22,283 nucleotides of DNA from a virus. Below are positions 1-22,283 of the stretch, piece after piece. Each line of letters opens with the position of its first letter. The stretch's first letter is position 1. The position numbers and the translations under genes are program-made. The DNA is taken from positions 1 to 22,283 of IMG/VR virus record IMGVR_UViG_3300030108_002577; one strand, 5' to 3'. The notes under the pieces were generated by a model. That model searched no databases and had not been told where the DNA came from. It saw only the letters and a list, made by a program, of their open reading frames with translations.

Positions 1-1
1 A

Positions 2-1417
2 GCATTACTCAATGGTGGACAACAAATGATATTGTCACCACCAAGACACGGTAAAACAGAACTACTAATACATTTTGCTATATGGCGTATTATGAAAAAT
101 CCTAACATAAGAATTATGTGGGTAGGCGGTAATGAAGACATTGCAAAGAACTCTGTGTCATCTGTAATAGATACATTAGAATCAAACGAAGGACTTAAAG
201 AAGACTTCTGTGGACCAGGAGGGACATTCAAACCTAAAACAAGAACAGGTAAGTCTTGGTCACAAAATGGTTTTACCGTATCAACAAGAACAGTACACGG
301 TATAAAGTCACCAACAATGATAGGTATTGGTAAAGGTGGTAAGATTTTATCACGTGACTGTGACTTAATTATTGCAGACGACATAGAAGACCACGCATCT
401 ACAGCACAACCTAGTGCTAGAAACAATACAAAGAACTGGTGGACAACAACACTTGCATCACGTAAAGAAGAACATACAGCTATTGTTGTTATAGGTTCAA
501 GACAACACCCTGATGATTTATATAGTTCATTACTTGACTCAGAGGCCTGGGAAACAATAGTTGAAGAAGCTCACGATTCAGGATGTTCTATAGCCGAACT
601 AGAAGAAGAAGAACATTTTGACTGTATGTTGTGGACAGGATTTAGAAGTTACAAATGGTTAATGTCAAGAAAAAGAGATGCTATGACTACAGGTGGTTTA
701 CAAAGATTTGAAATGGTTTATCAGAATAGGCCAGGAGAAGGTGGAGCAACTATATTTAATATTGAGGCTATATCTCAGTGTATGGACACAAGTAAAGTTG
801 TAGGCCAAATACCACAACACTCTTATTTAGTTGCAGGCTTAGACCCTGCAGCAACAGGTTACCAAGCTGCTTTTCTTTGGGCAATACTAGATGATGGTGA
901 AGATGCTTTGTTACAAATGGTAGATATACAAAATAACAAAGGTGGTGGTATAGAAGAAGCATTACAGATTATTAAAGAATGGCACAGAGACTATAACTTA
1001 TACCATTGGGTAATAGAAGAAAACAACTTTCAGAAAGCTATAAGGCAAGACCCTCGTATAAAAGATTATGCAAATAGAAATGGAATAATACTAGAGGGAC
1101 ACGAAACATACAAAAACAAATGGGATAGTCATTTTGGTGTTACATCATTAGCACCTATGTTTCAAGACAAGTTAATTGTTTTACCGTATGGCAATACTGA
1201 ATCACAAGTTAAATCAGAAATGTATAGAAAACAATTATCCTATTTTTCTGCAAGAAGAAAAAACATATATAAATCTGATATAGTTATGGCTAGTTGGTTT
1301 CCTATTAAAGTATTAAGAAAGTTGCAAAAAGCACATTACTCTGATATAGGAATTGACTACACTCCTAGCTATGACGGCTTTGATATAGTAGAATGGAATG
1401 ACGCTCCGTGGAGATAA
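2..1417 (+). CDS. terL: Terminase large subunit (5'-truncated by window edge)
   Basis: This is the ATPase/nuclease that drives DNA into the prohead through the portal and cuts it. The reading frame is open from base 2, so the true start lies upstream; the first ATG is at 26, immediately before the ATPase motif, and is not a plausible start. Residues counted from that Met: Walker A PPRHGKTE at 5-12, Walker B LIIADD at 114-119 followed by IED, a coupling-type segment IVVIGSR at 153-158, and an RNase-H-like nuclease with AGLDPA (D273), WVIEENN (E331/E332) and KSDIV (D418). The order ATPase then nuclease is complete apart from the N-terminus. The gene ends 20 nt past the first possible portal ATG. 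No small terminase is visible in the window. The family assignment is firm. Confidence 0.95.
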   Translation, partial: ALLNGGQQMILSPPRHGKTELLIHFAIWRIMKNPNIRIMWVGGNEDIAKNSVSSVIDTLESNEGLKEDFCGPGGTFKPKTRTGKSWSQNGFTVSTRTVHGIKSPTMIGIGKGGKILSRDCDLIIADDIEDHASTAQPSARNNTKNWWTTTLASRKEEHTAIVVIGSRQHPDDLYSSLLDSEAWETIVEEAHDSGCSIAELEEEEHFDCMLWTGFRSYKWLMSRKRDAMTTGGLQRFEMVYQNRPGEGGATIFNIEAISQCMDTSKVVGQIPQHSYLVAGLDPAATGYQAAFLWAILDDGEDALLQMVDIQNNKGGGIEEALQIIKEWHRDYNLYHWVIEENNFQKAIRQDPRIKDYANRNGIILEGHETYKNKWDSHFGVTSLAPMFQDKLIVLPYGNTESQVKSEMYRKQLSYFSARRKNIYKSDIVMASWFPIKVLRKLQKAHYSDIGIDYTPSYDGFDIVEWNDAPWR

Positions 1418-3206
1418 ATTGTTAGTTAAAGACATACTAGACAGAACAAAATATTTAAAAGCAATGCACGACCAAGCATTGCCTGATAGAGCTAGATTTC
1501 GTGCAATTATCAACGGAGGAGAACACGGTATAAAAGCTTTACTAGGTCAATCTTTATCTAGCACAGATGCAGATATGTTACCTGCTCCTAACTTATTACT
1601 ATCAGCACTAGACAGACTTGCACAGAAAATAGGTAGAGTTCCTGCTTTAGATGTACATATCACAAACCCTAGAGATAGTGAAAGAAATAAAAAGAAAAAA
1701 GATAAGCTAGAACGTATTGTTACATCATACGACCAGTTTCAACAACTTGAATTACAGTTACCACAAGTGGCTAGATGGTTACCAGGATATGGATTTGCTG
1801 TATGGGTTATAACAACTAAGACTGACCCTCAAGGTCATACATTCCCTGTGGCTGAATTAAGAGACCCATACACTACATTCCCTGGTTATCAAGGTGCAAA
1901 TCAAATGGCAGAAGAATTAGTGTCAATTAGAAATGTACCTGTTAACAATCTAATTCAAATGTATCCTGAACTTAAGAGTTATTTTGCAGAACGTAGTGAT
2001 GAACAAGACGACCCTTATGGATTTACTGTAGGTTTATATAACAACTATGCACAAGAAGGTTCTTGGGAAAACTCAAATGACAATGGTGAGTTAATAGTAG
2101 AGTATATAAACCCTGAAGGAACATACATTGTACACGTTGCATCACAGAAAATAGTTGACTTTGTACCTAATCCACTGAAATCAGGCCCTGCTTTTGTTTG
2201 TGCTAAAAGATATTCTTTTGACCAAATACAAGGACAGTTTGACCAAGTAATAGGATTAATGGCTGCTATGGCCAAAATCAATGTTATGTCAGTTATTGCT
2301 ATGGAAGATGCTGTATTTACAGAAACAAACATAGTAGGTGAAATAGAATCAGGACAGTATAGAAAAGGCCGTAATGCTATAAATTACTTAACACCAGGTT
2401 CTCAAGTAATCAAACCAGTAAATAATTTGCCTTACCAGTTGTTTGAATCTGTATCAAGAATTGAAAGACACCTAAGAACAGTAGCAGGTTATCCAGTAAG
2501 TGATGATGCTATATCTCCTAATTCTTTTGTTACTGGTAGAGGCCTAGAAGAATTAAATGCAGGTATAGGTGCTATGGTCAACGAGTATCATAAAGTATTA
2601 CAATTTGCTATTCAAGAAATAGATTACAAAAGATTAGAGCTAGATGAGTTAGTTTTGAACAAACGTAAACCATTAGTAGGAACTATTAGAGGTTCTGCTT
2701 TTGCTGAAAACTACACACCTAGTACAGATATTGATGGTAATTACCTTACAAGACGTAAGTATGGAGCTATGGCTACATTTGACGAAGCAAGTAAAGTAGT
2801 TACAGGATTACAGTTGCTACAAGCAGGCATAATAGATAAATCTACAATGCAACGTGAAATGGATGGTTTAGAAGATTTACAGGCTATAAATGAAAGAATT
2901 ACAAAAGATAAGGCCGAAAGTGTTATGTTTGATTCTTTATTAGCACAAGCTAGTCAAGGAGACAGTAAAGCACAAATGGCCTTGGTTGATATTTATAATA
3001 AACCAAATCAAATGGGTGCAATACTTAAGAAATTTTTTACAGCAGATGAACCTGCTATGAGTCCACAAGAACAAGCAATGGCACAGATGCAAGGAGTAGG
3101 CGGCCCACCACCACAACCTGGAGGAGGTCAACCACCAAGCCCTGAAGAAGTGCTAGGCCTAATTAATCAAGGAGCATTACAACAAGCTCCTTTAGGAGGA
3201 GGATAA
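1398..3206 (+). CDS. Portal protein
   Basis: Probable portal, the dodecameric ring at the packaging vertex that binds TerL and later the connector. At 602 residues it lies in the usual range, directly after TerL. It has an alpha/beta N-terminal half, a long central region (about 280-430) with a segment like AAMAKINVMSVIAMEDAVF, and a helical C-terminus. The tail is Pro/Gly-rich and low-complexity (about 570-602, GGPPPQPGGGQPPSP), as in many podoviral portals. The ATG at 1398 overlaps terL by 20 nt and lacks a clear Shine-Dalgarno. An in-frame TTG at 1419-1421 is preceded by GGAG at 1410-1413 with a 5-nt spacer and lies 1 nt after the terL stop, so it may be the real start. The assignment rests on position, length and general resemblance rather than a diagnostic motif. 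Confidence 0.85.
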   Translation: MTLRGDKLLVKDILDRTKYLKAMHDQALPDRARFRAIINGGEHGIKALLGQSLSSTDADMLPAPNLLLSALDRLAQKIGRVPALDVHITNPRDSERNKKKKDKLERIVTSYDQFQQLELQLPQVARWLPGYGFAVWVITTKTDPQGHTFPVAELRDPYTTFPGYQGANQMAEELVSIRNVPVNNLIQMYPELKSYFAERSDEQDDPYGFTVGLYNNYAQEGSWENSNDNGELIVEYINPEGTYIVHVASQKIVDFVPNPLKSGPAFVCAKRYSFDQIQGQFDQVIGLMAAMAKINVMSVIAMEDAVFTETNIVGEIESGQYRKGRNAINYLTPGSQVIKPVNNLPYQLFESVSRIERHLRTVAGYPVSDDAISPNSFVTGRGLEELNAGIGAMVNEYHKVLQFAIQEIDYKRLELDELVLNKRKPLVGTIRGSAFAENYTPSTDIDGNYLTRRKYGAMATFDEASKVVTGLQLLQAGIIDKSTMQREMDGLEDLQAINERITKDKAESVMFDSLLAQASQGDSKAQMALVDIYNKPNQMGAILKKFFTADEPAMSPQEQAMAQMQGVGGPPPQPGGGQPPSPEEVLGLINQGALQQAPLGGG

Positions 3207-3442
3207 TGTCTGAACCTTTAGATTTTGAAAGAAACAACAGAAGATTTCACGAAATTGTAATGAATGAAGAATGGGAAGTAAATAAACTTGATGTTGCTGA
3301 GTTGTACTTAAATGACCAACTAGCAGATTATCAAAGAGACACATTAGATAATGAATGGAGCAATATGGATGGATTAACAATTATTTACGTTCCAGGGTAT
3401 GGAAAGTTGCAGATGGTTTGGGTAGAAGATGACCCGAGGTAG
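3206..3442 (+). CDS. Small acidic protein of unknown function
   Basis: A 78-residue acidic protein with no motif I recognise. Its ATG overlaps the portal stop by one base (TAATG), and a strong Shine-Dalgarno run (AGGAGGAGG, about 3194-3202) sits just upstream inside the portal gene, so it is translated by coupling and is very likely a real gene. The N-terminal half is charged and probably helical; the C-terminal part (residues 55-74, with IIYVPGYGKLQMVWV) is hydrophobic and strand-like. There is no signal peptide or membrane segment. Position between portal and the giant virion protein suggests a head-assembly or virion accessory role, but this is inference only. Confidence 0.75.
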   Translation: MSEPLDFERNNRRFHEIVMNEEWEVNKLDVAELYLNDQLADYQRDTLDNEWSNMDGLTIIYVPGYGKLQMVWVEDDPR

Positions 3443-3770
3443 TAAAAAAGCATTTGCTATAGATGCACAAAGAGGTGAAGGTTCTGCTGAAAGAGAAGAT
3501 TTACTTAGAGCAGCACCATTAGAAGCAGAAGTTGCAGATTACACTCCTGCTGTAGAACCACTTCCTGAAACTGCACAACCACCAAGTCCATTAGCAGGTA
3601 ATGTATTTAGAGGAACTGAAAAACCTAATGTAGAAATAAAAGACACTTTACCTACAGTACCAGGGTTTGAAGTAGATAAACCTGAAGGTTTAGATAGAAC
3701 TAATGCAATATTAGCTGCAATAAATGATTTACTGGGAGGTAGCGAAGAAGCAACGGCAATGATGAGGTAG
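3429..3770 (+). CDS. Small Pro/Glu-rich protein of unknown function
   Basis: A 113-residue protein whose ATG overlaps the previous gene by 14 nt in another frame. The N-terminus is basic (MTRGSKK). The middle (about 25-80) is rich in Pro, Glu and Ala and is probably disordered, and the C-terminal 30 residues (DRTNAILAAINDLLGG) look like one amphipathic helix. This disordered-plus-helix plan is common in small virion linkers or cargo-type proteins, but I recognise no family. It ends with TAG one base before the giant gene begins, and its last codons supply that gene's GAGG ribosome-binding sequence. Gene status is supported by tight spacing and typical codon use. Confidence 0.7.
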   Translation: MTRGSKKAFAIDAQRGEGSAEREDLLRAAPLEAEVADYTPAVEPLPETAQPPSPLAGNVFRGTEKPNVEIKDTLPTVPGFEVDKPEGLDRTNAILAAINDLLGGSEEATAMMR

Positions 3771-3771
3771 T

Positions 3772-6700
3772 ATGGGAATATTTGGATACGAGCCAGTTGA
3801 TTTAGAGCTAAACAGTTATAACAATCGTCAAGCAAGAGAGAAGCAATTCAAAGCTATCAAAGATACAATTTCTAACAAACCTGAATTAGGAAATAACTTA
3901 GAAGAAATTGTAAATAAGTTTGGAAATATATTACCAAGAGATGTAATGGTAGGTTCTGCTTTAATGGGATTTACTGTTGATAACCCTGAACTATCTTCTT
4001 TAGTTAGAAGACAAATAGAACTAGATAACGAAAAGAATGAAGCTGTTTTAAAAAAAGCAGGAAATTTTGGTAAAGGATTTGTACGTTCTGCATTTGTAGG
4101 TATGGATTCACTAGCAGAGTGGCTAATAAAAAGACCATTTCAAGCAGGTGTTAAAACACTAACTGAAGCAGGCCAAAGTCCTTTTGCTGCTTATGCTGCA
4201 ATGTTTGGAAGCCTTGTTACAGGAGGTTTAGGTGACGAAGTAATATTTAACTCAATGGGCCTTGGAAAGCAATATAGTGAAAATAAAAAAGAATTAGGCC
4301 CTACTCAAGCAGGAATGGCTATAAGAAAATTAGCTAAAGGAGAGAGGGTAAACTTAGGTGAAGGGTTTTTTGGTAACTCTACATTAGCAAGAGATACAGA
4401 AATATATAAAGAAGTAGCTTCACAAATACAAGACCCTAGTCAATTAGCACAAATTGAAAAAGTTATACAACAACAATTAGGTACTCCTATTACACAAGTT
4501 GAAAGAGATAGAGTAGAAAACAATTTATACAAGGGTGTTGTTGTAAGTCCTGGTAGAGTTGCTGCTATAAATATAGCAGAACCAGGTACAGATAGATTTA
4601 AACTTGTTTCAGGTCTTATAGATGGTGTTGTAACTTTAGGTCTTGACCCTGCAAACTTAGCAGGTGGTTGGGCAAATACAGCTACAAAAGCAGGTAGACA
4701 GTTTGTAACAAAAGTAAACAATCCTGGTATGGCTAAAGCTAGAAGAGTGTTAACTGCAGACGTTTTTCAAAAAGTAAATATTGTAAATCCTAAAGGTGGA
4801 GACGATTTAATTAGATATGTAGATGTAGGTGACTTGTATCTGACCCAACCAAAATATACCTTTGATGAATTAAATATGTTAGCAAAAGAAAGAGGCAAAA
4901 GAGGTGCATTTTATGCAAGAGAGGCGAACGGTAATATTATTACTAATACAGATTACTACACCCGTGGAGGAGCATCTTTTTGGCCACAAAACTTACGTGA
5001 TTCTGCTAGAGGACAAATAAAAGTATTTGACCCTGGTGGTCCTTCACCATACACTAAAACTCTTGGTGGTTATGACATATTGATTGAAAACACTCCTGTA
5101 AGAGCTAAAGGTTTTAGTAAAGAGAGAATATTTATAGATAGAGATAAATTATTAAAAAGCAGAATTTTTAAAAATGCAGATGGAACATACGGCACAGACG
5201 GTGCTGCTCTGAAGGGTAAAAAATTTGCAAGTGAAGAAGAAATTATAGATTTTGTTTTGGCACACGAAGCGGAACACGCTTTAAATTATATTGGACAAGG
5301 TGATAAAACTGTACAAAAATTGCACGCAGCTAAAGTAAAAGAAATGCGTAGAGCTAAAGAGTTAGGTGTTGACCAAACTGATAATTATGCAGAAGTTAAT
5401 AGAAAATATGAAAGAGCTATAAATGAAAAAGTATTAACAGAATTAGAAAATGGCACAATACGTAATTATAGGGGACGAAGTATAGATGTTAATAAAATGA
5501 ACTCAGGTTTATCACGTGTGCTTAGACCTTCTTTAAATAAGACAGTATTTGAAGATTGGCATAGTACTACTGGTAAAAAAATATATGATTTCTTATATGA
5601 CAATATACAAAAAGGTGGCATAGATTATGAAGCAATTAGAAAAATACTACCTGATGTATCGCCTGCAACAAAAGGAAGAATACTAAATGCTGCTAATGGA
5701 GATGAGATTGGTGACATTATTGCAAAAGAAGTAAGAGCAGGAAACATTTCTAAAAGGCTCGACCCATATAGTTTTACTTTTAGAGGTGGTGTATCAAGAC
5801 GTTTAGGAAAAGTATTTGGAACAAACAATAAATTATTAGATGATGGTAGTCGTATAGACTTTTCAGATATGGGAGACTTTCTAGGGGTGGGTGCTGTAAT
5901 AGGACGCAAGTCTACAGACAATGCAATATCAAGAATGTTTAAGACAATAGCACCAGGAAACATAAATGTTTATTCACATACTGTAGGCTACAAACAAATG
6001 GAAGACTTAATATCTGCCTTACCCTTTTCTAAGAAACAAAAAAAGAAATTGTATGACGAACTTATACAAAGTAATACCAATATACAACAAGGTATGTTAG
6101 AAGGTAGAAAGTATTCTCGTATAAGAATTACAGAAGAAATGTACAATTTGTTATTAGGAAGTAAAGAAAATCCAGGTGGAGTATTGACTGAACTTAACAA
6201 GTTAATGAAAGCTAAAGGTTATGGAAAAGAAGTATCTAGCGGTATAACAAAATTTATAGCTGAAGTTAGAGAATCAAGAAGATACTGGCAATCACTTGTT
6301 GGAGATGAAATAGTAGATGTAGGTTTTACTGGTGCTAAATCTACAAGACCAGGAGCTTCTGCATTAGGTTCAGCACAAGCACAATTAAAATTAGATGAAT
6401 TAGATGGCTTAGTCAATAAAGCAGATAGTGATGCAATACAAGATTTCTTTTATAGAAATTATGATGGTGATAAAGAGATAGCACAACCAACAGCACAACT
6501 AATGACAGAGATGCTTACTGGTAATATACCTTTACCTGATATGCGTGAAGTATATAGAATACTTGGTGAATTTAGAAATAACCTATACAAACTAACAGGA
6601 CTAAGTAGATTACCATTTACTCCATCAAGAATAGATTTACCACAAGTATTAAGTAAAGAAAATAAATTTTTTAAACTTGTTGATAGCGTGTATGATGATG

Positions 6701-9700
6701 ACTTTGCAATAGCAGCAAGGGAAAATAAAGAGTTTGCTGAATTTTTAAGTAAGTGGGAATACCCTGATTATGCAACTTTACAAAAACGTGGTGATATAAA
6801 AGATTTTAGAAAATATGTAGAAAAAGCACAGCAAACTGCAAGAGATGAGTTGTATGATGCTTATAAAAAATTTACTGGCAAAGATGCACCTAAACAGTTT
6901 GATGGTGAATTACTAAGTATATTTGGTTCATTAGATGAAACAGAAATGATACAAAGTGCTGCAAATGCAGGTAATATAGCAAGCAATGCTGTGTCACAAA
7001 GAATCGCTAGATTGTTTTACAGAGTAGATAAAAGTGCTACAGAAAACAATAGACTTGTTAATACTGCTATAACAAGGTACGCAAACAATATAGTTAGTCA
7101 GGCGTGGAAACCTTTACAGTTATTAAGATTTGCTTGGACTGCAAGAGTTATATCTGAAGAACAGTTACGTATGTATGCTGCAGATATGGGCAATATGTGG
7201 ACAAGTCCTTGGTCGTTATTTGCTTATGCCTTTGGTAAAAAAGCAGGTAAAGATATATTAGGTTCTGATATTCAAATGTCTTTAATACATAAGATGGCAA
7301 TGTCTAAAGGTTCACAAGGCCTTATTATGAGAAAAGGAACTTCAATAGATAGATTTTATGATGTAGTTAGAAAAGAACTGTCTTTAGGTGAAACTGCATC
7401 AAGAAGTAGATATGCACAAGGATGGGCAACTGAACTTACTCAATTAGCTAATGATGACTTATCTGTGGCTATCGCCCAAGTAATGACTAACAAAAGCAAA
7501 CAATTTAAATCATTAGATGATATTGCAAAGCATTTAACTAATGAATCTAACAAAGGTGATATATTGTATGAATCTTTTAAAGACTGGATTGATTCAGGAG
7601 ATTTAATATCAGGCCCTACTAGACAAAAAATAGGTAATGATTTGGACAGAACACTTGAGTATCTTGAAAGTATACAGGCAAGGATAGTAGATAAAACAGG
7701 TGGTACTTTTAAAAAGTATATATTAAAGGATGGTAAAAAAATAGAAATACCACTTAACGTTATGTACAGAAATTCTGCAGACCCAAATGGTTTGCCTTTA
7801 CGTATGTACTATGAAATTGATGAACTTAATTCATCAAGACGTTTTATTGATGGTATAGCAAAGAGAGAAATATCATTTTTAAAAACAAAGCCAGGTAGCA
7901 ATGTAGAAGAGTTTAGAAGAATTAAGCTAGGTGGAGAATCTATGTCTGATAAAAACTATGATGAGCTAGTAAAAGAGTTAGCTAGACAAGTAGAGTATGG
8001 CCCTGAAATAGTTAAAGTATCAAGACGACTAGACAAAACAGGAACACTATCAGATGTAGTAATAGACAAATCTGTTAAAGCAACTAACGCATTGTTTGAT
8101 TTATTTATGTCAGCTCCTACAAATAAATTATCTAGGTCCCCTGCTTTCAAACAATTTTACTGGAGAAGAGTATCAGAGTCTGCAAAAGGTTTAGAGCCAA
8201 GAGCTTTACAAAAAGTTATACAACAAGCTAAAAAAGCAAAGGTAGATAAAAAAGTTATAAGACAATTAGAGGCTACCCCTGGAACTGTTGGTGGTATTAC
8301 AGAAGCAGGATTAAAAGATTTTGATGAGTTAGCTAAATCATTTGCTTTAACAGATGTTCAAGACTTACTTTATGATATAAACAGACGTTCACAGTTTTCA
8401 GAAGCGTTAGAGTTATTATTCCCATTCGCAGAAGTCCACAAAGAAATAGCAGGAACTTGGACTAGGTTAATTAAAGATAATCCAACAAAATTAAGAAAAA
8501 TGTATATTACTGTAGATAGTTTGAAGGAAAGTGACCCAACAGGGTTTGATGTATTAGGTGGAGATTCTTCTGACCAAAATAGTAGCTTTATATATACAGA
8601 CCCTCTTACACAAGAACAAGTATATGTTATACCTGCATTCGACCCAGTATTTAACAATATATTTCAAAATATAACAAATATACCTGGTTCAACAAGTCAA
8701 CAAAATATTAACAATCAACTTCAAGGTGATGACCCTAGGTTCCAAGAATTGTTACAAGAAGGAATGCCTAATGTAGGTGCAGATGTCAGAATGAGAACTA
8801 TAGGTTTTACATCCTCTGCAAACATAGTAGCAGGAGGTGTATTACCTGGTGTAGGTCCTGCAATACAAATCCCTGCAAGATTTTTATTACCTAACAAAAA
8901 AGAAAAATCTGCTATTTATCAAACTATATTTCCTTATGGAAAAGGCGACTTTATATCTACCTTTGTACCATCCTGGTTACAAAAAGTAATTGGAGCTTTT
9001 GAAGCTGGTACAGATGAATGGAATCGTGCATATACAAATACATCTAAAGATATATTAAGAGCAAAAGTATTATCAGGAGATATTGTTATAAACAGTCAAG
9101 ACGATTTATTAGAAGCATTAAACGTTATTAAAAGACAAGCTACATTTATGACAATCCTAAGAGGTGTAGTACAGGGTGTATCTTTAACAGGAGGTAGCTT
9201 TAGATTTGAAGCTGCAGTATCTCCAGGTGGTGATTTATATTGTGACTTAGGACGTATGAGAGATTTAGGAATAGACCCTGAAGGTAAGTACTTTGCATTC
9301 AATGTATTAGCTTCTGCTTATTACAGAATATATTCTGAAAATGAAGGGGACCAAGTTAAGACAATGCAAGAGTTTACTAACTTGTTTGGATATGACCCTA
9401 CTGCTTTACTTATATCTAAATCAAAAGAAATAACAAGAACACCATACACTATAGACAATCTTGATTATGCAAAGACTAATGAAACAATGCAGTATGCTTT
9501 TGAAAATCATCCTAATGTGGCTTACTATTTAAGCCCTGATATTCCTATTGATGAGTTTAGTTATCAGGGATTCGTAGATGCTTTTGATGAAGACAACATT
9601 TTAGGGATGGTTGCAAGACAAGATTTAACTTTATCAGAATGGGCTTTGCTATATAATCAAGTTGCAGGTAAGTTTGCAATGGAAAACTTTAGAAGAGAAG

Positions 9701-10152
9701 TATCAAATGTTGGTGGAAGTAACTATGTAGGTAGCGATAAAATTAGAAATGAACTACTTGGTAGAGCTAATGATTCTATAGTAGAAATGTTTCCAGGATA
9801 TGATGTAAGGCCTAGAACAATAGGTACTGCAGACTACGAACAACTTGAGCGTGAAATAAGACGTATGATAAATGACCCTCAGATTCCACAAAACTCAGAA
9901 ATGGTAATTGCAACTAAAGTATATTTAGAATCTTTAGATGTATTTAGAAGTAAGTTGCAAGTTAAATTAAATAGTCCTGATGTATCAGATAAAAATTACT
10001 TTGGATATGAAGCAAGGAGAGCATTAGAAGAAAAAGCAAAAGAATTGTATACTAGGTATCCACAATTTTATTTTATATACAATGATATTTTTAGACCACA
10101 ATTACAAGAAAATGTTAGTAAACTATTACAAGAAGGAGCAGGATTACCGTGA
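3772..10152 (+). CDS. Giant (2126 aa) internal/ejection-type virion protein with HExxH motif
   Basis: The largest gene in the window. It encodes a mostly helical soluble protein with no signal peptide. Around residues 450-560 lies a zincin-like segment: hydrophobic strands, then FVLAHEAEHALNY with HEAEH at 498-502, followed about 50 residues later by YERAINE (E552), which resembles the third zinc ligand of phage HExxH peptidases; E541 is an alternative. A conserved-looking central block (near 1115-1145, WKPLQLLRFAWTARVISEEQ) and a later block (near 1545-1585, LLFPFAEVHKEIAGTWTRL) resemble huge virion proteins of other phages from memory. A GAGG sits at 3764-3767 before the ATG, and the stop overlaps the next gene's GTG. 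Position between portal and capsid, and size, suggest a protein packed in the head and ejected with DNA. A tape-measure role is less likely because no tail-tube gene is seen. The family name is uncertain. Confidence 0.75.
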   Translation: MGIFGYEPVDLELNSYNNRQAREKQFKAIKDTISNKPELGNNLEEIVNKFGNILPRDVMVGSALMGFTVDNPELSSLVRRQIELDNEKNEAVLKKAGNFGKGFVRSAFVGMDSLAEWLIKRPFQAGVKTLTEAGQSPFAAYAAMFGSLVTGGLGDEVIFNSMGLGKQYSENKKELGPTQAGMAIRKLAKGERVNLGEGFFGNSTLARDTEIYKEVASQIQDPSQLAQIEKVIQQQLGTPITQVERDRVENNLYKGVVVSPGRVAAINIAEPGTDRFKLVSGLIDGVVTLGLDPANLAGGWANTATKAGRQFVTKVNNPGMAKARRVLTADVFQKVNIVNPKGGDDLIRYVDVGDLYLTQPKYTFDELNMLAKERGKRGAFYAREANGNIITNTDYYTRGGASFWPQNLRDSARGQIKVFDPGGPSPYTKTLGGYDILIENTPVRAKGFSKERIFIDRDKLLKSRIFKNADGTYGTDGAALKGKKFASEEEIIDFVLAHEAEHALNYIGQGDKTVQKLHAAKVKEMRRAKELGVDQTDNYAEVNRKYERAINEKVLTELENGTIRNYRGRSIDVNKMNSGLSRVLRPSLNKTVFEDWHSTTGKKIYDFLYDNIQKGGIDYEAIRKILPDVSPATKGRILNAANGDEIGDIIAKEVRAGNISKRLDPYSFTFRGGVSRRLGKVFGTNNKLLDDGSRIDFSDMGDFLGVGAVIGRKSTDNAISRMFKTIAPGNINVYSHTVGYKQMEDLISALPFSKKQKKKLYDELIQSNTNIQQGMLEGRKYSRIRITEEMYNLLLGSKENPGGVLTELNKLMKAKGYGKEVSSGITKFIAEVRESRRYWQSLVGDEIVDVGFTGAKSTRPGASALGSAQAQLKLDELDGLVNKADSDAIQDFFYRNYDGDKEIAQPTAQLMTEMLTGNIPLPDMREVYRILGEFRNNLYKLTGLSRLPFTPSRIDLPQVLSKENKFFKLVDSVYDDDFAIAARENKEFAEFLSKWEYPDYATLQKRGDIKDFRKYVEKAQQTARDELYDAYKKFTGKDAPKQFDGELLSIFGSLDETEMIQSAANAGNIASNAVSQRIARLFYRVDKSATENNRLVNTAITRYANNIVSQAWKPLQLLRFAWTARVISEEQLRMYAADMGNMWTSPWSLFAYAFGKKAGKDILGSDIQMSLIHKMAMSKGSQGLIMRKGTSIDRFYDVVRKELSLGETASRSRYAQGWATELTQLANDDLSVAIAQVMTNKSKQFKSLDDIAKHLTNESNKGDILYESFKDWIDSGDLISGPTRQKIGNDLDRTLEYLESIQARIVDKTGGTFKKYILKDGKKIEIPLNVMYRNSADPNGLPLRMYYEIDELNSSRRFIDGIAKREISFLKTKPGSNVEEFRRIKLGGESMSDKNYDELVKELARQVEYGPEIVKVSRRLDKTGTLSDVVIDKSVKATNALFDLFMSAPTNKLSRSPAFKQFYWRRVSESAKGLEPRALQKVIQQAKKAKVDKKVIRQLEATPGTVGGITEAGLKDFDELAKSFALTDVQDLLYDINRRSQFSEALELLFPFAEVHKEIAGTWTRLIKDNPTKLRKMYITVDSLKESDPTGFDVLGGDSSDQNSSFIYTDPLTQEQVYVIPAFDPVFNNIFQNITNIPGSTSQQNINNQLQGDDPRFQELLQEGMPNVGADVRMRTIGFTSSANIVAGGVLPGVGPAIQIPARFLLPNKKEKSAIYQTIFPYGKGDFISTFVPSWLQKVIGAFEAGTDEWNRAYTNTSKDILRAKVLSGDIVINSQDDLLEALNVIKRQATFMTILRGVVQGVSLTGGSFRFEAAVSPGGDLYCDLGRMRDLGIDPEGKYFAFNVLASAYYRIYSENEGDQVKTMQEFTNLFGYDPTALLISKSKEITRTPYTIDNLDYAKTNETMQYAFENHPNVAYYLSPDIPIDEFSYQGFVDAFDEDNILGMVARQDLTLSEWALLYNQVAGKFAMENFRREVSNVGGSNYVGSDKIRNELLGRANDSIVEMFPGYDVRPRTIGTADYEQLEREIRRMINDPQIPQNSEMVIATKVYLESLDVFRSKLQVKLNSPDVSDKNYFGYEARRALEEKAKELYTRYPQFYFIYNDIFRPQLQENVSKLLQEGAGLP

Positions 10153-15330: not shown

Positions 15331-15335
15331 AAATT

Positions 15336-15803: not shown

Positions 15804-15813
15804 TAATTTATAT

Positions 15814-15819: not shown

Positions 15820-15827
15820 AGATAAAA

Positions 15828-16952
15828 ATGGGAGCAATTAGCTTAGGTGCATCAAGCACTACAATTTATGCTCAACATATTAATAACTTCACTGGTGAAT
15901 TGTTTAAAGTTGGTGGTCAAAGAACACCTCTACTTACTGCAGTTGGTGGTTTGAATGGCGGCAAAACATTAAATTCTACATTTTGGCAAGTCCAAGTAGA
16001 AGATAATGCAACCGTTTCTTCAGAACCAACTAAAGGTCAAGAGGGTTCTACACCTACAGAATATCTTGGAAGAGACAGAGCTGCATATACTTATGTAACT
16101 CAGATTTTCCACAAGGGTGTACAAATGACATACACAGCTTTAGCATCTACACAAAACCAAAATCCTTTCGACTTATCTGCAAACATTGCCAACTTTTCTG
16201 ATGGAACAGGCGGCAACACAGCAGGTGACAAGTTAGCACTATTTGGTGGTAGCCCAGTGGCAGATGAATTTGCTTTCCAAATGGAAAAAGCAATGGAAAA
16301 AGTAGCAAGAGAAGTTGAGTGGTTTGCATTCAACGGTTCTTTCTCTGACGGTGCTAATACCACCCCAGGTGATGGAACTAGAGAAATGTACGGTCTTGAC
16401 GTATGGATTACCATAAACAAGAACGCCGACAACTCTGCAGCAGTCAACCCATTAGGCGGTAACTGCTACTACAACGACACAGCAGGAGACGGAACTGGTT
16501 CGGCACAAGTTATATCCTTTAAGACTATTTCAGAGTCATTAAAGAGAATGTATGACAACCACGCACCAATGACAAACCCTGTATTATGTGTTAGTCCAAA
16601 ACAATTACTAGACCTTAACAACGAGCTTGTTAAAGGTACAGTTGATATAGCAGGTGCAATCATTCCTAGAGATAGAAGTGTTGCAGGTGTTGACATTGAC
16701 ACAATCATTACACCATTCGGTTCAATCGGACTTATGGTTATTGACCCTGATGTTATGCCAACAGGAACTGCTTTCATCTTAGACTTAGCTTACATACAAC
16801 CAGTATTTACCAACATCCCAGGATTTGGTACTGTGTTCGTACGTGACTTAGACCAAGATGCCAATGCTAGAATTGGTAAAGCAATTTATATGGAGATGGG
16901 ATTCGAGTTCGGACCTCCTTCATATCACTGCAAAATTCAAGCAGTAGCATAA
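15828..16952 (+). CDS. Major capsid protein (SU10/DUF5309-like)
   Basis: The 374-residue shell protein. The N-terminal region has the pattern QRTPLLTAVGGL (about 31-42) followed by a strand ending FWQVQVEDN (about 51-59) and then RAAYTYVTQIFHKGVQMTY (about 84-102). This resembles the SU10-type HK97-fold capsid family, in which a TPF/L-L-x-x-x-G-G motif precedes a W-Q strand and an N-V-T-Q-I-F-type strand. The C-terminal half carries strands such as ITPFGSIGLMVIDPDVM, as expected for the P- and A-domains. It follows the scaffold and has a strong ribosome-binding site and an intrinsic terminator. Codons differ from the neighbours: Asn, Asp, Tyr and Phe often end in C, as in highly expressed genes. 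Family placement is by recognition, not search. Confidence 0.92.
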   Translation: MGAISLGASSTTIYAQHINNFTGELFKVGGQRTPLLTAVGGLNGGKTLNSTFWQVQVEDNATVSSEPTKGQEGSTPTEYLGRDRAAYTYVTQIFHKGVQMTYTALASTQNQNPFDLSANIANFSDGTGGNTAGDKLALFGGSPVADEFAFQMEKAMEKVAREVEWFAFNGSFSDGANTTPGDGTREMYGLDVWITINKNADNSAAVNPLGGNCYYNDTAGDGTGSAQVISFKTISESLKRMYDNHAPMTNPVLCVSPKQLLDLNNELVKGTVDIAGAIIPRDRSVAGVDIDTIITPFGSIGLMVIDPDVMPTGTAFILDLAYIQPVFTNIPGFGTVFVRDLDQDANARIGKAIYMEMGFEFGPPSYHCKIQAVA

Positions 16953-16967
16953 ACAATTTGAAGATTA

Positions 16968-16994
16968 GGGTGGAACTCCACCTCCACCCTTTTC
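16968..16994 (+). terminator. Rho-independent terminator after the capsid gene
   Basis: GGGTGGA (16968-16974) pairs perfectly with TCCACCC (16983-16989) around an 8-nt loop, followed by TTTTCTT. It lies 15 nt after the capsid stop. The loop contains a second CCACC that can pair instead with GGTGG (16969-16973), giving an alternative shorter hairpin. The site would make capsid and scaffold the most abundant messages upstream of it. Confidence 0.88.
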
Positions 16995-17015
16995 TTCTGC
17001 TATAGTAAGGAAGAT

Positions 17016-17348: not shown

Positions 17349-17356
17349 GAGACCCA

Positions 17357-18346
17357 ATGAGCAATATTGGTAACCTAGTAGATAGAACCTACAGGGAATA
17401 TCTTGAACCTATGGACGACCTAGTTAGTTATACAACACTATCTACAGGCATAAACAATTCAGTAACAACTTTAACTTTTAATGGTGACTTGTTATCTGTA
17501 GAAGAAGAAGATGCTATGGATGCAGGTACTGTCATTGAAATAAATCAAGAGCTTATGTTGTGTACAGATTTAAACGCTGTAACTAACACAGTTACCGTAA
17601 CTAGAGGTGCAAGAGGTACAACTGCAGCAGCACATACTGCAGGTGATTTAGTTAAAATTTCACCACCATTCCCACGTAAAAATGTATTTGATGCTGTATG
17701 TGACCAAATAAAAAATTTATATCCTACATTATTTGCAGTAGAAACTAAACAAGTATCAGCTAAAGTTGGGTATATCCCATTGAGTGGTACAAATGATAAT
17801 TACTTAATAGCTCCAATAAAAGCTATATCTCAATATACAGATTTTTCTGCAGGTACAGATGACACAGGTATTGTATATTCAGGTGTTACAGTAGAACTTG
17901 TAGACCTACCTAACCCATTTACTTATACAGATTCGGATGGTGTATCACAAACAATAACATATAGTAACAATGGACCTAACAAAGTAAATGCTGTTCAAGT
18001 GTATAACGTAAACGCAGGCCATACAGTGTATATCACATTTAAAAAGAAATTTGTAGAACCAACTGCAGAAGATAATACGCTAGCTGAAATAGGTTTAGAA
18101 AGTGAATACGAACCAATAATTATGGCAGGTGTTGCAGCACAAATAATGGCAGGTAGAGATATACCAACAGCTACTACAGACTACATATCAGACCAATTAG
18201 CTACACAATCCTTTCCTGTAGAATCTGCAGCTAGGATAAGAAACTCTTTATTGGCCTATCAAAGAGCTTTGATACAGCAGGCTAGAAAAGATTTAAGAGC
18301 TAGGTATCCTGAACCAGTAACAATAAATAACTTGAGTTATGGATAA
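17357..18346 (+). CDS. Head-tail connector/adaptor-like protein
   Basis: A 329-residue protein in the neck-gene position, after the head genes and before the large tail protein. The N-terminus is helical (VDRTYREYLEPMDD), followed by a beta module (about 27-100) ending with VTVTRGARGTTAAAHTAGDLV. A helix follows (NVFDAVCDQIKNLYPTLF), then a beta-rich middle (about 135-235) and a C-terminal helical part (about 240-320). The N-terminal helix and helical C-terminus would fit a ring adaptor of the T7 gp11 or neck type, but homology to those is not shown. The module at 27-100 recurs in the fibre gene at 20317. GGAG precedes the ATG, and the stop overlaps the next start by one base. Confidence 0.65.
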   Translation: MSNIGNLVDRTYREYLEPMDDLVSYTTLSTGINNSVTTLTFNGDLLSVEEEDAMDAGTVIEINQELMLCTDLNAVTNTVTVTRGARGTTAAAHTAGDLVKISPPFPRKNVFDAVCDQIKNLYPTLFAVETKQVSAKVGYIPLSGTNDNYLIAPIKAISQYTDFSAGTDDTGIVYSGVTVELVDLPNPFTYTDSDGVSQTITYSNNGPNKVNAVQVYNVNAGHTVYITFKKKFVEPTAEDNTLAEIGLESEYEPIIMAGVAAQIMAGRDIPTATTDYISDQLATQSFPVESAARIRNSLLAYQRALIQQARKDLRARYPEPVTINNLSYG

Positions 18347-20316
18347 TGCCTAGAATTGCATCAACTATTAATATTTCTAACCCTAAAAGATATGGGTATG
18401 ATGTCAGAATAGATGATATATTATTACGTTCTGCTGTTGGTCCAGGTAGAGAAATGCAAATACAATCATCAGATGTACAAGAAGGACAGATAAATGTTAA
18501 ACAAAATCCTGAAGATTTTACTTCTAACTTAGGCCGTAAGTTCTCTCGTAATAACTTTTCAGGTGGTCAAGGATTAGATACAGCACACAGAGTTAATGGT
18601 AATCCTAAAGATGTAACTAGATTTTTTGACAGCAAAGGGGTAGATGTATTTCACGCAGATGATGAAACAGCTTATAGTGCTAAGTTACTACACACAACAA
18701 CAACACAAAGTCAAAGTTTTAGTGCTGATAATAACTATTTAGCACAAATTACAAATGGAGATGTATTCGTAACTGACGGTACAACCATACATAAGTATGA
18801 TTTATCAGCAGAATCTTGGTCTGAAATATCATCTAGTACTACAGGAGCTACACATAACTTTACAGGGTTAGTTGCAGTAGGAGACAGAATGTATGCTACA
18901 ACTGCTAACGGTACTTCAGGTTCACAGTTAATAGAATTTACAGGTAGTTCCTGGGTAGTAAGAACTACAGACCAGGCCTCAAATGGTTTAACAGGTATAC
19001 ATTTTGCTAAGGGTCAGTTGTTTATATCAGGAGATGATGGAACTGTAGGTTACTTGTGGGGTATAAGTCCTATAGGACAAACTTGGGATTCTAGTGATTT
19101 AACAGAAGCTAGTGCAATAGTAACGTTTGATAATAGTTTTAGTATAACATCTGTGATAGATGCAGGTTCAGTGGTTTTAGCTGCGTCAACAAGCGGGGAT
19201 ATATTTTCAATAAAAGATATAACAGGCACTATGACACTGAAAGGTCAGACCAATATACCTTTTGAAGAAGTACATTCATTAGCTGCATCTGAAGGTATTG
19301 TATTTTTTGGAACAAAAGAAAAAACAAAATCTGTAGGTAGATTTTATACAGCTCAGCTAGTTACTGCTGATGACTTATACGTTGTAGCACAAAGACAATT
19401 AATAAAAGAATGGGATATAACAGGTGTAGATAGTACACCAAAATTTATGTTTGTATCAAGAGATAGTGTTTACTGTGGTGTAAAAGAAAGTGGTAGTGAG
19501 ACATTTTTGTGGAGATATTACTTACCAACTGCAGGTTTTGCTAGAAACATAAAGATGGGTGCAGGTGGATTTGTTACTGGTATTACACAAGTAGAAGGTA
19601 AGTTTATGGTGGTAGTAGCAGCAAGTGATGTATATTTAGAAACATCTGCATTTGAATCTGAAGGTTATATATTGTTATCTGCTGCAGATTTCTTTACTGC
19701 TGAAGCAAAACAATTTGTAGGTGCAGAGATGTCTACACAAACTTTAGCTTCAAATACCACAACAGAATTATTTTACTCTACAAAATTTGAGGCATTAGAT
19801 AATCCTAGTGATTCAAGTTTTATAGAGGCTATAGTACAAACAACAGGCACAGGTGACGTAGAAAAACAGATAGCTGAAGTATCAAGGTTTATAGTAGGTA
19901 AAGTTATTCTTAAAACTTCTGATGGTATAAATACACCTAAAGTAAAATCAGTACAGTTTCGTGCATTAGCAAGGCCTGAACTTGTAGTTGCACAAATACC
20001 TGTAAATGTATCAGATAGAGTAGAAAGGCCTAATCGTAAACCTATAAAAGTAAAAGGTTTAGGTGAAGCAATATATTCTGAGTTACGTACAAAAGAAGGT
20101 GCGTCTGTTACTTTAGAATTATTTGACCCTGCTGAAGTTATCCGTGGTGTGGTAGAAAGAATAAGCTATCCAATAAATTCAAATGTTGAAAGAGGAAGTG
20201 TAACCCAGTATGCTATAATTACGGTGCGTGGTACTAGACAGCAAACTGTTACAGATGTAACTAGCACAGAAGTGTTTGGTATTCAGCAATTAGGATTATT
20301 GAAATTTGGAGCATAG
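18346..20316 (+). CDS. Large beta-rich tail protein, nozzle/hub-like
   Basis: A 656-residue protein whose ATG overlaps the preceding stop (TAATG). Residues 1-85 include VGPGREMQIQSSDVQEGQ and a RKFSRNNFSGGQGLDTAHR segment that I associate with tail proteins of marine phages. Residues about 105-430 show repeated strand blocks of the type ITNGDVFVTDGTTIHKYDL, LVAVGDRMYATTANGT, IHFAKGQLFISGDDG and IVFFGTKE, spaced 40-55 residues apart, as in a beta-propeller. The C-terminal part (about 450-656) is another beta domain. A propeller tail protein directly after the adaptor matches the T7 gp12 nozzle plan, so it probably closes the portal channel and anchors fibres. This is a structural analogy, not demonstrated homology. 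Confidence 0.7.
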   Translation: MPRIASTINISNPKRYGYDVRIDDILLRSAVGPGREMQIQSSDVQEGQINVKQNPEDFTSNLGRKFSRNNFSGGQGLDTAHRVNGNPKDVTRFFDSKGVDVFHADDETAYSAKLLHTTTTQSQSFSADNNYLAQITNGDVFVTDGTTIHKYDLSAESWSEISSSTTGATHNFTGLVAVGDRMYATTANGTSGSQLIEFTGSSWVVRTTDQASNGLTGIHFAKGQLFISGDDGTVGYLWGISPIGQTWDSSDLTEASAIVTFDNSFSITSVIDAGSVVLAASTSGDIFSIKDITGTMTLKGQTNIPFEEVHSLAASEGIVFFGTKEKTKSVGRFYTAQLVTADDLYVVAQRQLIKEWDITGVDSTPKFMFVSRDSVYCGVKESGSETFLWRYYLPTAGFARNIKMGAGGFVTGITQVEGKFMVVVAASDVYLETSAFESEGYILLSAADFFTAEAKQFVGAEMSTQTLASNTTTELFYSTKFEALDNPSDSSFIEAIVQTTGTGDVEKQIAEVSRFIVGKVILKTSDGINTPKVKSVQFRALARPELVVAQIPVNVSDRVERPNRKPIKVKGLGEAIYSELRTKEGASVTLELFDPAEVIRGVVERISYPINSNVERGSVTQYAIITVRGTRQQTVTDVTSTEVFGIQQLGLLKFGA

Positions 20317-21318
20317 ATGACATTACAGACAGCTACATACAGTAACTTTTTTGAGACAACACTAAATGGTATTGTAGCATCAGGTGCTACTAACTGTACA
20401 TTAACAGCAGCACCTACAACAAATGGAACTACTCCAATAGCTGCACCGTATTATTTAGTAATAGACCCTGACAATGCTTCTAACAGAGAAGTTGTATTAG
20501 TAACTGCATCCTCAGGTACAACAGTATCAGCTATGACTAGAGATGTAGAAGGTAGATATACTACTGACCCAACACACGTAGATGGTACAACCGTACGTAT
20601 GGCCGTTGTAGGTGAAATGTTTGAAGATATTCACGACAGAGTAAATGACATAGCACTTACTGGAGATATAACAGGAACCATAAGTAGTTCAACGCAAGAT
20701 ATAGCTACAAGTTTTGGTAGTGGTGTTATTGTTAACGCAGATGTAAATGCTAGTGCTGCTATAGATGCCTCTAAAATACACGACGGTTCAGTATCTAATA
20801 CAGAATTTGGACATTTAGATGGTGTATCATCTGCAATACAAACACAGATAGACAACATATCAGCAGGTGCAGTAACACTTACAGTACCTATAACAGTCAA
20901 AGTAGCTGATGATGGTTCAGGTTCACAAAATGTTTTTTACTTTTTATCAGGTACAGATTCAGGTGCAGGAACTAGGTCATCTAATTTTATATTCAAGATA
21001 GGTTTTAAATATAAGTTTGATACATCTGACAGTTCACTAGCAACTCACAACTTTAAATTTTCATTAACACAAGATGGTTCGCATAACAGTGGTTCAGAAT
21101 TTACAACTAACGTAACAACTGCAGGTACACCAGGTAGTTCAGGTTCATCTACAACAATAGAGATTACACCTGAAACTTTAGGTATAGCAGGAGCTACATC
21201 AACACTTTACTATTACTGTTCTAGTCATAGCGGTATGGGTGGAGATGGTGCTATAAACTTATACTCATCAGGTGGTGGCGGTGGTGACATCCACGGTTTC
21301 TTATTGATGGGAGCATAA
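20317..21318 (+). CDS. Tail fibre protein with cupredoxin-like C-terminal domain
   Basis: A 333-residue appendage protein starting directly after the preceding TAG. Residues about 22-96 are a beta module (NREVVLVTASSG, then TRDVEGRYTT) that resembles the module in the connector gene and is probably the attachment end. Residues 100-180 are fibre-like, with ADVNASAAIDASKI and the common phage fibre segment FGHLDGVSSAIQTQIDN. Residues about 190-316 look like a cupredoxin fold: FKYKFDTSD, H244 in ATHNFKFSL, and LYYYCSSHSGMGG with C301, H304 and M307, the spacing expected of a type 1 copper site (C-x2-H-x2-M). The C-terminus is Gly-rich and ends FLLMGA. Similar C-terminal segments occur in marine phage proteins from memory. 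Receptor binding or display is likely; metal binding is unproven. Confidence 0.75.
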   Translation: MTLQTATYSNFFETTLNGIVASGATNCTLTAAPTTNGTTPIAAPYYLVIDPDNASNREVVLVTASSGTTVSAMTRDVEGRYTTDPTHVDGTTVRMAVVGEMFEDIHDRVNDIALTGDITGTISSSTQDIATSFGSGVIVNADVNASAAIDASKIHDGSVSNTEFGHLDGVSSAIQTQIDNISAGAVTLTVPITVKVADDGSGSQNVFYFLSGTDSGAGTRSSNFIFKIGFKYKFDTSDSSLATHNFKFSLTQDGSHNSGSEFTTNVTTAGTPGSSGSSTTIEITPETLGIAGATSTLYYYCSSHSGMGGDGAINLYSSGGGGGDIHGFLLMGA

Positions 21319-21319
21319 T

Positions 21320-21520
21320 ATGGGTATGTTAATGATGCTCAAAGAAGGTGGAAGTTTAGTAATAGATACTATTGGTAACTTACCTATAGACGAAGATATA
21401 GATTTACTGCCTGAAGCAACTGTATCATTAAATGTAGATTTACAATTAATGTTATGGTCTGATACAGGTTTCGCATTACAGTACCTAGATGTGGATGAAA
21501 TGCTATTATTAGGTGCATAA
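21320..21520 (+). CDS. Small tail-region protein of unknown function
   Basis: A 66-residue acidic protein. GGGAG (21309-21313) lies 6 nt before the ATG, which supports it as a real gene; a second ATG 6 nt later is possible. It reads as a hydrophobic start (MGMLMMLKEGGSLVI), an acidic loop (IDEDIDLLPE), then alternating strand residues and the end DEMLLLGA. That end resembles the C-termini of the two genes before it. No transmembrane helix long enough is seen. Position among fibre genes suggests a small structural or chaperone-type protein, but nothing specific is recognised. Confidence 0.6.
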   Translation: MGMLMMLKEGGSLVIDTIGNLPIDEDIDLLPEATVSLNVDLQLMLWSDTGFALQYLDVDEMLLLGA

Positions 21521-21547
21521 GATAAAATATGATAATATAGGAGATAT

Positions 21548-21874
21548 ATGGCAAACGAATATAAGATATTAGCACAACACGCAGGTGGTACATCCGCTAC
21601 CACTTATGCTGTGCCTGCTAGCACAAGTGCTATTATTTCATCTGTAGTTGTTGCAAACAGAGCTTCCTCTGCGAAAACATTTAGGATAAGTGTTTTTCCT
21701 AGTGGTGGTTCAGGAACTGCTGACGCAAGTTACTTAGCCTTTGATACATCTGTTGCTGCAAATGATGTAGTAACAATGACTTTAGGTATAACTTTAGCAA
21801 CAGGAGAATCACTGCAACTATATGGTGAAGATACTAATATTTCAATAAATGCTTTTGGAACACAAATTACATAA
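21548..21874 (+). CDS. Small beta-rich tail/fibre-associated structural protein
   Basis: A 108-residue protein with AGGAG about 7 nt before the ATG. It begins NEYKILAQHAGGTSATTYAV and continues PASTSAIISSVVVANRASS, then TFRISVFPSGG, and ends GESLQLYGEDTNISINAFG. This order (YKIL, T-x-x-T-x-Y-x-V-P-A, S-x-V-V-x-N-R, F-R-I-x-V-x-P) is a recurring small beta-sandwich virion protein in many marine and cyanobacterial phages, seen near tail-fibre genes. It probably forms a trimeric or jelly-roll appendage. Role is from resemblance and context only; no enzyme motif. Confidence 0.7.
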   Translation: MANEYKILAQHAGGTSATTYAVPASTSAIISSVVVANRASSAKTFRISVFPSGGSGTADASYLAFDTSVAANDVVTMTLGITLATGESLQLYGEDTNISINAFGTQIT

Positions 21875-21886
21875 TCGGAGAAACTA

Positions 21887-22283
21887 ATGGGTTTTAAAAG
21901 ACTAGCATTAAATGATGGTGCTTCTGCACATATAAGCAGAGGTGATGACCTCAATGCAAAAGCTATGACACTTGTTCAAACAAGCAATAGTAATGGCTCA
22001 TTTGCACCTGATAGCAATAACACCAAATACCAAGTGTTTGCCGTTGGTGGTGGTGCAGGTGGAGGAGGTTGGCGTGCAGGTGGAGGGGGTGCAGCAGGAG
22101 CTGTATTCTTTGAAGGCGTACAATTTAGTGGTACTTCTAATATATCTATAGGTAGTAGAGGTAATGGAGCTAACTCAGGTCAATTTTTAAATGGTGGTAA
22201 TGGTGGCACTACAAGTATGAATGCTGCAACTTTTATAGCTCAATCAAATAATAAAAATACTTTATCAAATGTATCTGTAGCAG
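21887..22283 (+). CDS. Glycine-rich tail adhesin (3'-truncated by window edge)
   Basis: The ATG at 21887 has GGAGA 6 nt upstream and the frame stays open to the last base, giving at least 132 residues. The start reads MGFKRLALNDGASAHISRGD. Residues about 52-75 form a Gly-rich block (VFAVGGGAGGGGWRAGGGGA), followed by Ser/Asn/Gly-rich strand residues. This resembles glycine-rich phage tail-tip adhesins and fibre ends, which fold into polyglycine-type sandwiches and often determine host range. Since the 3' end is missing, the final domain is unknown. It is the last of the tail appendage run in the window. Confidence 0.75.
   Translation, partial: MGFKRLALNDGASAHISRGDDLNAKAMTLVQTSNSNGSFAPDSNNTKYQVFAVGGGAGGGGWRAGGGGAAGAVFFEGVQFSGTSNISIGSRGNGANSGQFLNGGNGGTTSMNAATFIAQSNNKNTLSNVSVA

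Follow-up and report, generated by a model that had tools for sequence, protein, structure and literature searches.

The stretch of DNA analysed here (the window; 22,283 nt) contains neither GATC nor CATG and covers structural genes of a tailed phage genome. Taken as a whole, the evidence makes it likely that this phage, probably one of marine actinobacteria, has been purged of the restriction sites of its hosts. The features of the window are as follows:

Positions 1–22,283, no strand assigned: stretch without any GATC or CATG (word counts).
Positions 2–1417, plus strand: open frame of the terminase large subunit, its 5' end cut by the window (phrog_38, 6.3e-60).
Positions 1398–3206, plus strand: open frame of 602 aa without a PHROG match, portal-like by position only, its cluster present in 24 of 24 records.
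Positions 3772–10,152, plus strand: open frame of 2126 aa (open frame list).
Positions 15,828–16,952, plus strand: major capsid protein (phrog_1328, 8.2e-27), the query with which relatives were found.
Positions 17,357–18,346, plus strand: tail-related protein that is conserved across all 24 records compared.
Positions 18,346–20,316, plus strand: 656-aa open frame, likewise conserved in each of the 24 records.
Positions 20,317–21,318, plus strand: tail-fibre-like protein (phrog_693, 8.3e-6).

The initial annotation had reported that GATC is missing from the window where several dozen copies would be expected, and both statements hold: the count is 0 against 55.2 expected from trinucleotides (Markov), nowhere near expectation and far from chance in all nulls run (paired word counts are given here as a against b, so that a pair such as 465/582 reads 465 against 582). 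CATG is likewise absent (0 against 53, Markov), and the full record of 28,042 bases contains no GATC (0 against 66) and no CATG. Since TCYRGA (0 against 17), GNGCNC (0 against 15) and CCAGA/TCTGG (0 against 21) are also missing from the window, the further claim that avoidance is specific to GATC has to be given up. As claimed, CTAG is frequent and normal (98 against 98) and GANTC-type sites are present (49 against 46.6); GTAC does occur in many copies (67), yet is mildly low (against 100). GGCC is over-represented (37 against 12). In the window and its relatives, the missing words are mostly short palindromes of the sort that Type II enzymes recognise; some, such as CCAGA and CCAGC, are non-palindromic, a point against such avoidance.

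GATC is under-represented beyond what composition, codon and protein constraint account for. When codons in the 18 open reading frames of the window were shuffled synonymously 1,000 times, GATC occurred 67.6 ± 5.9 times with a minimum of 49, and CATG 25.4 ± 3.9 times, against none of either in the real sequence; 100 dinucleotide shuffles of the window gave 41.6 ± 5.8 GATC. The loss thus persists beyond coding constraint in the codon-shuffle comparison that the initial annotation had proposed alongside the Markov one. Five core genes of a GATC-positive relative (G027) contain 18 GATC sites, and across 21 GATC-poor records GATC was kept in 0 of 377 aligned cells at these sites, the changes being 193 synonymous and 184 amino-acid ones (one gap left aside). 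CTAG was retained in 174 of 481 aligned cells in the same comparison.

The annotation had also suggested counting the word in related phages, and GATC is absent from 75 of the 80 best relatives among the loci found with the capsid protein. Among 25 records, each lacks between 3 and 12 palindromes (mean 6.6) and the sets differ among relatives, while none of 100 Markov nulls contained any eliminated palindrome. These differing purged sets are combinatorial restriction-site avoidance. By the same count, the cultured phages Venkman (OM43), HMO-2011 (SAR116) and HTVC010P (SAR11) have eliminated 15, 13 and 10 palindromes, respectively. Venkman and HMO-2011 resemble the clade in lacking GATC (0 against 99 and 0 against 156), though their hosts are different, whereas HTVC010P, also of a different host, keeps it (126 against 137).

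The relatives provide a natural experiment with and without a methyltransferase, in which GATC avoidance is relaxed where the phage carries MT-A70. Only one of 78 records, G027, encodes an MT-A70 adenine methyltransferase (PF05063, 8.5e-31, with a DPPW motif); its GATC count is 101 against 119 at 34.3% GC, and it stands beside a GATC-free sister (G021). All ten MT-A70 loci of the clade, namely G027 and nine fragments, have GATC, at 0.30–1.28 of expectation, and in five of these nine fragments CATG is 0. GATC is part of every one of the nine words whose release is most specific to G027; these are low in 22 of the 24 other records, and the next released word is low in only 15 of 24. Judged from this word contrast and the GATC counts of the carriers, the G027 enzyme may methylate GATC, and the word would have returned in the MT-A70 lineages after an older loss. 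Several points count against this explanation: the carriers are not numerous, and some of them are related (L143–L145 with G027, and L202 with L207); Venkman encodes a 57%-identical MT-A70, yet lacks GATC; four of 80 MT-A70 loci have a GATC ratio of 0.1 or less; and Venkman, L157, L185, L214 and L219 are carriers outside the clade that break the pattern.

Other GATC-positive phages and other methyltransferases fit less simply. GATC-positive G042, G046, L283 and L285, as well as L301 (14 against 11), showed no DNA-methyltransferase motif, their early regions being missing or partly covered; the last three came from two further scans for the early regions of G042 and G046, which covered the missing region in part. 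A Dam-type (PF02086) methyltransferase as the cause of GATC in the positive phages was rejected, as it was found in none of 51 records. The C5 methyltransferase found in two records (G011 and G024) is not matched by any clearly released word, as even the best candidates are low in no more than 10 of the 23 other records; this counts against the explanation. Likewise, a phage in an actinobacterial metagenome-assembled genome (MAG) has its own N6/N4 methyltransferase, yet its GATC count is 0 against 124. On MAG contig C30, two methyltransferase matches of identical score are separated by 43,860 bases, which had suggested a circular permutation of the phage with 14 kb of overlap; this was rejected, as the ends, compared without gaps, were only 62% identical, and the unit length of 43,860 is accordingly an assumed one.

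The hosts are probably uncultured streamlined marine actinobacteria, and they may belong to the Candidatus Actinomarinales. One relative sits in an Actinomycetota MAG of ~1.1 Mb; against this assignment count the lack of any WhiB family member among 110 scanned phage proteins and a terminase that resembles phages of many hosts. In 48 loci of the host order GATC is retained (465 against 582). D12/Dam-type methyltransferases occur in seven of 42 host-order genomes, one as a partial match, and nuclease-like neighbours were seen beside such genes; one of these Dam-family proteins has DpnM as its closest solved structure, and another adjoins a protein that matches a Type II endonuclease model and is predicted to be one. 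The DpnII and MutH/Sau3AI families were each found in none of the 42 genomes. Nothing follows for CATG from the same result with the NlaIII/ICEA family, as the control was unmatched everywhere, and the putative endonuclease of G104, paired there with a Dam-like methyltransferase (L225), gave an uninformative best E of 0.005 against solved structures. On the proposed reading, the hosts would make GATC- and CATG-cutting endonucleases.

Selection by a GATC-cutting host restriction system, as the initial annotation proposed, is the best-supported cause because the loss is also synonymous, host-order DNA keeps GATC and MT-A70 phages have it, even though the avoidance extends to other words and no GATC endonuclease was identified in the 42 host-order genomes. 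Incoming phage DNA free of sites would escape cutting, and the purging of GATC, CATG and other palindromes would most likely let the phage escape bacterial cutting enzymes.

The adaptation belongs to a known kind; in this clade it is extensive, varies among relatives and seems reversible. According to Rusinov et al. (2018; PMC6286503), non-temperate phages lose short palindromic Type II sites, about one tenth of viral genomes show complete or almost complete site loss, and coliphages with hydroxymethylated DNA show hardly any avoidance. The loss of such sites is shared with the present phages; these, however, are uncultured marine phages in which several sites are lost per genome, the sets differ among relatives, one word is back in carriers of one methyltransferase gene and the host enzyme is putative. 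In a report on HF1-group haloviruses (PMC7230728), GATC and CTAG are absent from seven of seven isolates together with many 6-mer palindromes, and methyltransferase genes are gained and lost at one place. The absence of GATC and many palindromes and the coming and going of methyltransferases are thus alike, but those are archaeal viruses in which GATC stays absent even from methyltransferase-bearing members, from which their authors conclude that the enzymes must target other motifs.

The second option of the initial annotation, selection against methylated GATC, is less likely because methyltransferase carriers keep the word, which presumes that MT-A70 methylates GATC. In its wider form, hosts would attack methylated GATC by DpnI- or Mrr-like enzymes, or act through a system based on phosphorothioation, and the word would be avoided by phages for this reason. 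Both mechanisms are discussed at GATC for haloviruses (PMC7230728), phages of hosts with a Type IIM GATC enzyme under-represent GATC in 46 of 46 cases (PMC6286503), and a DpnI-like gene is present in one of the 42 host-order genomes. One such gene is little for a nearly clade-wide loss, and the GATC kept by MT-A70 members is the opposite of what would be predicted if their enzyme methylates it; we therefore consider this alternative improbable. It is still less probable that a nuclease of the phages themselves cuts GATC, for example in degrading host DNA, while their own genome is kept free of it. Such a nuclease would yield complete, clade-wide absence of one word, but a separate one would be needed for each other missing word, and no cluster tracks GATC absence: all clusters found in more than nine of the 18 long GATC-poor records also occur in GATC-rich G027 (frames of at least 50 aa), and a Pfam scan of 110 of 181 cluster representatives detected a single SNase but neither HNH nor restriction-enzyme families. 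Base composition, codon choice or mutational bias could make many words rare in an A+T-rich genome (35–36% GC), but as a sole cause they are refuted by the synonymous shuffles and Markov simulations, by normal GATC in nested relatives of like composition such as G027 and by its normal count in host-order DNA, and we give them very little credence. Although every clade record is a metagenome assembly, a library-preparation or assembly artefact losing GATC-bearing DNA is refuted, with hardly any doubt, by metagenome 3300030090 having yielded both G027, rich in GATC, and G001 and G017, free of it, the same result being obtained in relatives from many metagenomes and sites being replaced by substitutions, not gaps.

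Beyond host restriction as the cause of the purge, we regard a broader picture as somewhat favoured, with less assurance. In this clade, the list of purged words would be a legible record, open to reversal, of the restriction systems that uncultured marine hosts possess; a GATC purge that was old and near-clade-wide would have been undone in those lineages that gained an MT-A70 GATC methyltransferase; and recombination would move modules between phages with unlike purge lists, leaving visible seams such as stray GATC, CATG or ACGT limited to one block. If true, phage genomes alone would reveal the restriction specificities circulating in uncultured small-genome marine bacteria, the methyltransferase carriers would offer a natural comparison of how site avoidance relaxes, and the shifting purged sets among near relatives would serve to make recombination among phage populations visible.

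The window contains no GATC in its 22,283 bases, as the initial annotation had reported, against 55.2 occurrences expected from trinucleotides and 41.6 +/- 5.8 in dinucleotide shuffles. Synonymous codons were also shuffled 1,000 times among 18 open reading frames, with proteins and pooled codon usage left unchanged, which yielded 67.6 +/- 5.9 GATC (range 49-86). Consequently, the absence is explained neither by base content, in agreement with the annotation, nor by protein sequence. CTAG (98 vs 98 expected) and GANTC (49 vs 46.6) are present, as had likewise been noted. The claim that avoidance is specific to GATC did not hold: CATG is also missing (0 vs 53.4 expected; 25.4 +/- 3.9 in codon shuffles, minimum 13), as are TCYRGA (0 vs 17), GNGCNC (0 vs 15) and CCAGA/TCTGG (0 vs 21).

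The window constitutes the first 22,283 bases of a 28,042-base IMG/VR record that carries terminase, capsid and tail genes. No near DNA match was found among 50,697 annotated phage records. The capsid protein matched 24 records at 25-30% identity, all but two of them from phages that infect Mycobacterium, Propionibacterium or Bifidobacterium, and the terminase matched 364 records from many hosts (best about 28% identity). No WhiB family member was detected among 110 phage proteins scanned. A capsid-alignment scan of GTDB genome contigs, restricted to two peptide patterns, returned a single relative, located in the Actinomycetota MAG RS345 of about 1.1 Mb; a second contig of this MAG encodes a capsid protein 67% identical. 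The two phage contigs of the MAG (G078, C30 and C36) differ from each other, and both have no GATC where counted (0 vs 124 and 0 vs 48 expected). The order of MAG RS345 was represented by 42 genomes of 0.6-1.1 Mb. From genome size, GC content and a published account (PMC7771536), we infer both the identity of this order, Candidatus Actinomarinales, and its role as host of these phages; that account describes restriction-modification islands in two genera and the order's first phages.

A capsid protein search identified 142 stretches, the best 80 of which (78-99% identity, from 78 records) were counted. GATC is absent from 75 of these 80, the others holding 1 (L023), 2 (L078), 32 (L049), 33 (L072) and 27 (L077) copies, and CATG and ACGT are absent from 6 and 23 of the 80, respectively. 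Twenty-five records were studied further, comprising the window's own record, 23 relatives in full or nearly so and the phage of the MAG. GATC lies at or below 6% of expectation in 22 of them. Among 256 palindromic patterns, each record has eliminated 3-12 (mean 6.6), whereas second-order Markov simulations, 100 in all at four per record, eliminated none. The purged sets vary by record and include CATG, ACGT, TCGA, GGCC, GCGC, GANTC, GCNNGC, GGNNCC, CTYRAG, AAGCTT and others. A tree built from five concatenated proteins calls for two changes in GATC avoidance, three in CATG avoidance and six each in GGCC and GCGC avoidance. GGCC is enriched in the window (37 vs 10.3 in codon shuffles) and above expectation in the relatives G001 and G015; it occurs at most once in 15 of the 22 other records so counted and in the MAG phage. 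Two 52-kb IMG/VR records (L010/L027 and L008/L075) carry two clade capsid genes each and are perhaps joined genomes or assembly chimeras.

In several relatives, an otherwise avoided word is confined to one block:

G015, 1-8000: block carrying otherwise avoided word (CATG)
G020, 1-9900: block carrying otherwise avoided word (ACGT)
G032, 40000-42199: block carrying otherwise avoided word (GATC)
G047, 31168-34189: block carrying otherwise avoided word (GATC)

All GATC copies of G032 (four), G047 (four) and G014 (two) fall into a single block per genome, in tail or lysis-side genes, with none elsewhere against 126, 87 and 102 expected. G015 exhibits 13 CATG within bases 1-8,000 and 4 vs 97 expected elsewhere, and G020 five ACGT within 1-9,900 and 0 vs 24 expected elsewhere. 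The simplest reading of this confinement is that phages whose purge lists differ have recombined with each other.

One relative, G027, offers a natural experiment, as it has GATC at 101 vs 119 expected. GATC-poor phages surround it in the five-protein tree, and its sister, G021, has 0 vs 120. Eighteen GATC sites in five core genes of G027 were aligned to 21 GATC-poor records: GATC was kept in 0 of 377 aligned cells (one gap set aside), with 193 synonymous replacements and 184 that change an amino acid. The control words CTAG and TGCA were kept in 174 of 481 and 404 of 1,282 cells. Six of the 18 sites are shared by G042 and five by G046. When every 4-mer, 5-mer and degenerate palindrome was contrasted, GATC was part of each of the nine words with the most specific release in G027; these were low in 22 of the 24 other records, and the next word in 15.

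G027 is also the only one of 78 records encoding an MT-A70 adenine methyltransferase (PF05063 match, DPPW motif); none was found in 18 long GATC-poor records (0-4 GATC). Among the best 80 loci of a longer list returned with this enzyme, ten, G027 included, can be assigned to the clade because they share at least five genes with it. All ten contain GATC (observed/expected 54/51, 28/29, 15/14, 32/25, 27/28, 8/27, 28/33, 19/25, 9/20 and 14/22). Some of them are closely related: L143-L145 to G027, and L202 to L207. Five of the ten have no CATG and 0-1 ACGT; the enzyme is therefore not tied to a general release of words. The locus with 8/27, L147, matches G032 at 94% identity across 1.1 kb; G032 has just four GATC, all within 40,676-41,821 of its 42,199 bases. 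We read L147 as having gained the gene recently.

Several results do not fit a simple methyltransferase model. The cultured phage Venkman encodes an MT-A70 protein 57% identical, yet has GATC at 0 vs 99 expected, and four of the best 80 MT-A70 loci show a ratio of at most 0.1, while all 12 loci of 70% identity or more exceed that ratio; GATC protection may be limited to enzymes closely related to that of G027. An N6/N4 methyltransferase is encoded by the MAG phage, whose GATC count is 0 vs 124. No methyltransferase motif was found in the GATC-positive G042, G046, L283, L285 and L301, all of them fragments that lack the early region or cover it only in part. G011 and G024 carry a C5 methyltransferase, with which no word was clearly released.

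Attack on GATC of another kind, methyl-directed for example, is less likely, as it accounts poorly for the methyltransferase carriers. A GATC-cutting nuclease encoded by the phages themselves is unlikely: every protein cluster shared by more than nine of the 18 long GATC-poor records also occurs in G027, and Pfam revealed no restriction-enzyme or HNH family among 110 of 181 cluster representatives. An artefact is excluded, as GATC-rich G027 and GATC-free G001 and G017 derive from one metagenome.

In the host order, PF02086 methyltransferases occur in seven of 42 genomes (in G084 the match is partial, and PF01555 fits that gene better). Both of those tested passed the NCBIfam "dam" cut-off, and one is closest to DpnM among solved structures (5e-31). 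Neighboring genes of these methyltransferases include PD-(D/E)XK proteins; in G104 the neighbor is a predicted endonuclease (PADLOC Type II model, 4.6e-27), and plasmids of Megamonas and Enterococcus carry relatives of this pair as adjacent genes. A DarT1-associated NADAR antitoxin family match (L224, 647-1357) adjoins a D12 methyltransferase. C5 methyltransferases are present in nine genomes and PF01555 methyltransferases in 37, the latter beside a gene we take to be sufB in four of six loci read. At L241, L250, L260 and L261, a conserved N6/N4 DNA methyltransferase with no visible endonuclease partner adjoins a sufB-like gene. The known GATC endonuclease families DpnII and MutH/Sau3AI were found in none of the 42 genomes, which as species representatives and MAGs can miss strain-variable islands. 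One genome (G112, L321) has a DpnI-like gene, with no methyltransferase beside it. Host-order DNA keeps GATC (465 vs 582 expected) in 48 loci of 182,607 bases chosen mainly for methyltransferase genes.

That phages avoid restriction sites is well documented, as is the near absence of such avoidance in hydroxymethylating coliphages (PMC6286503), and loss of multiple palindromes including GATC is similarly described for HF1-group haloviruses (PMC7230728). No literature titles on this clade or on MT-A70-linked GATC return were found, which, judged by titles, argues only weakly for novelty. Counted in the same way, the cultured phages of marine heterotrophs Venkman (L315, OM43), HMO-2011 (L318, SAR116) and HTVC010P (L317, SAR11) have eliminated 15, 13 and 10 palindromes, and P-SSP7 and the soil phage Bernal13 one and two; these five isolates provide a comparison and no general proof. 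Venkman and HMO-2011 both lack GATC. Taken together, this clade offers a genuine and strong example of an already known strategy, whose form here is unusually extensive and informative.
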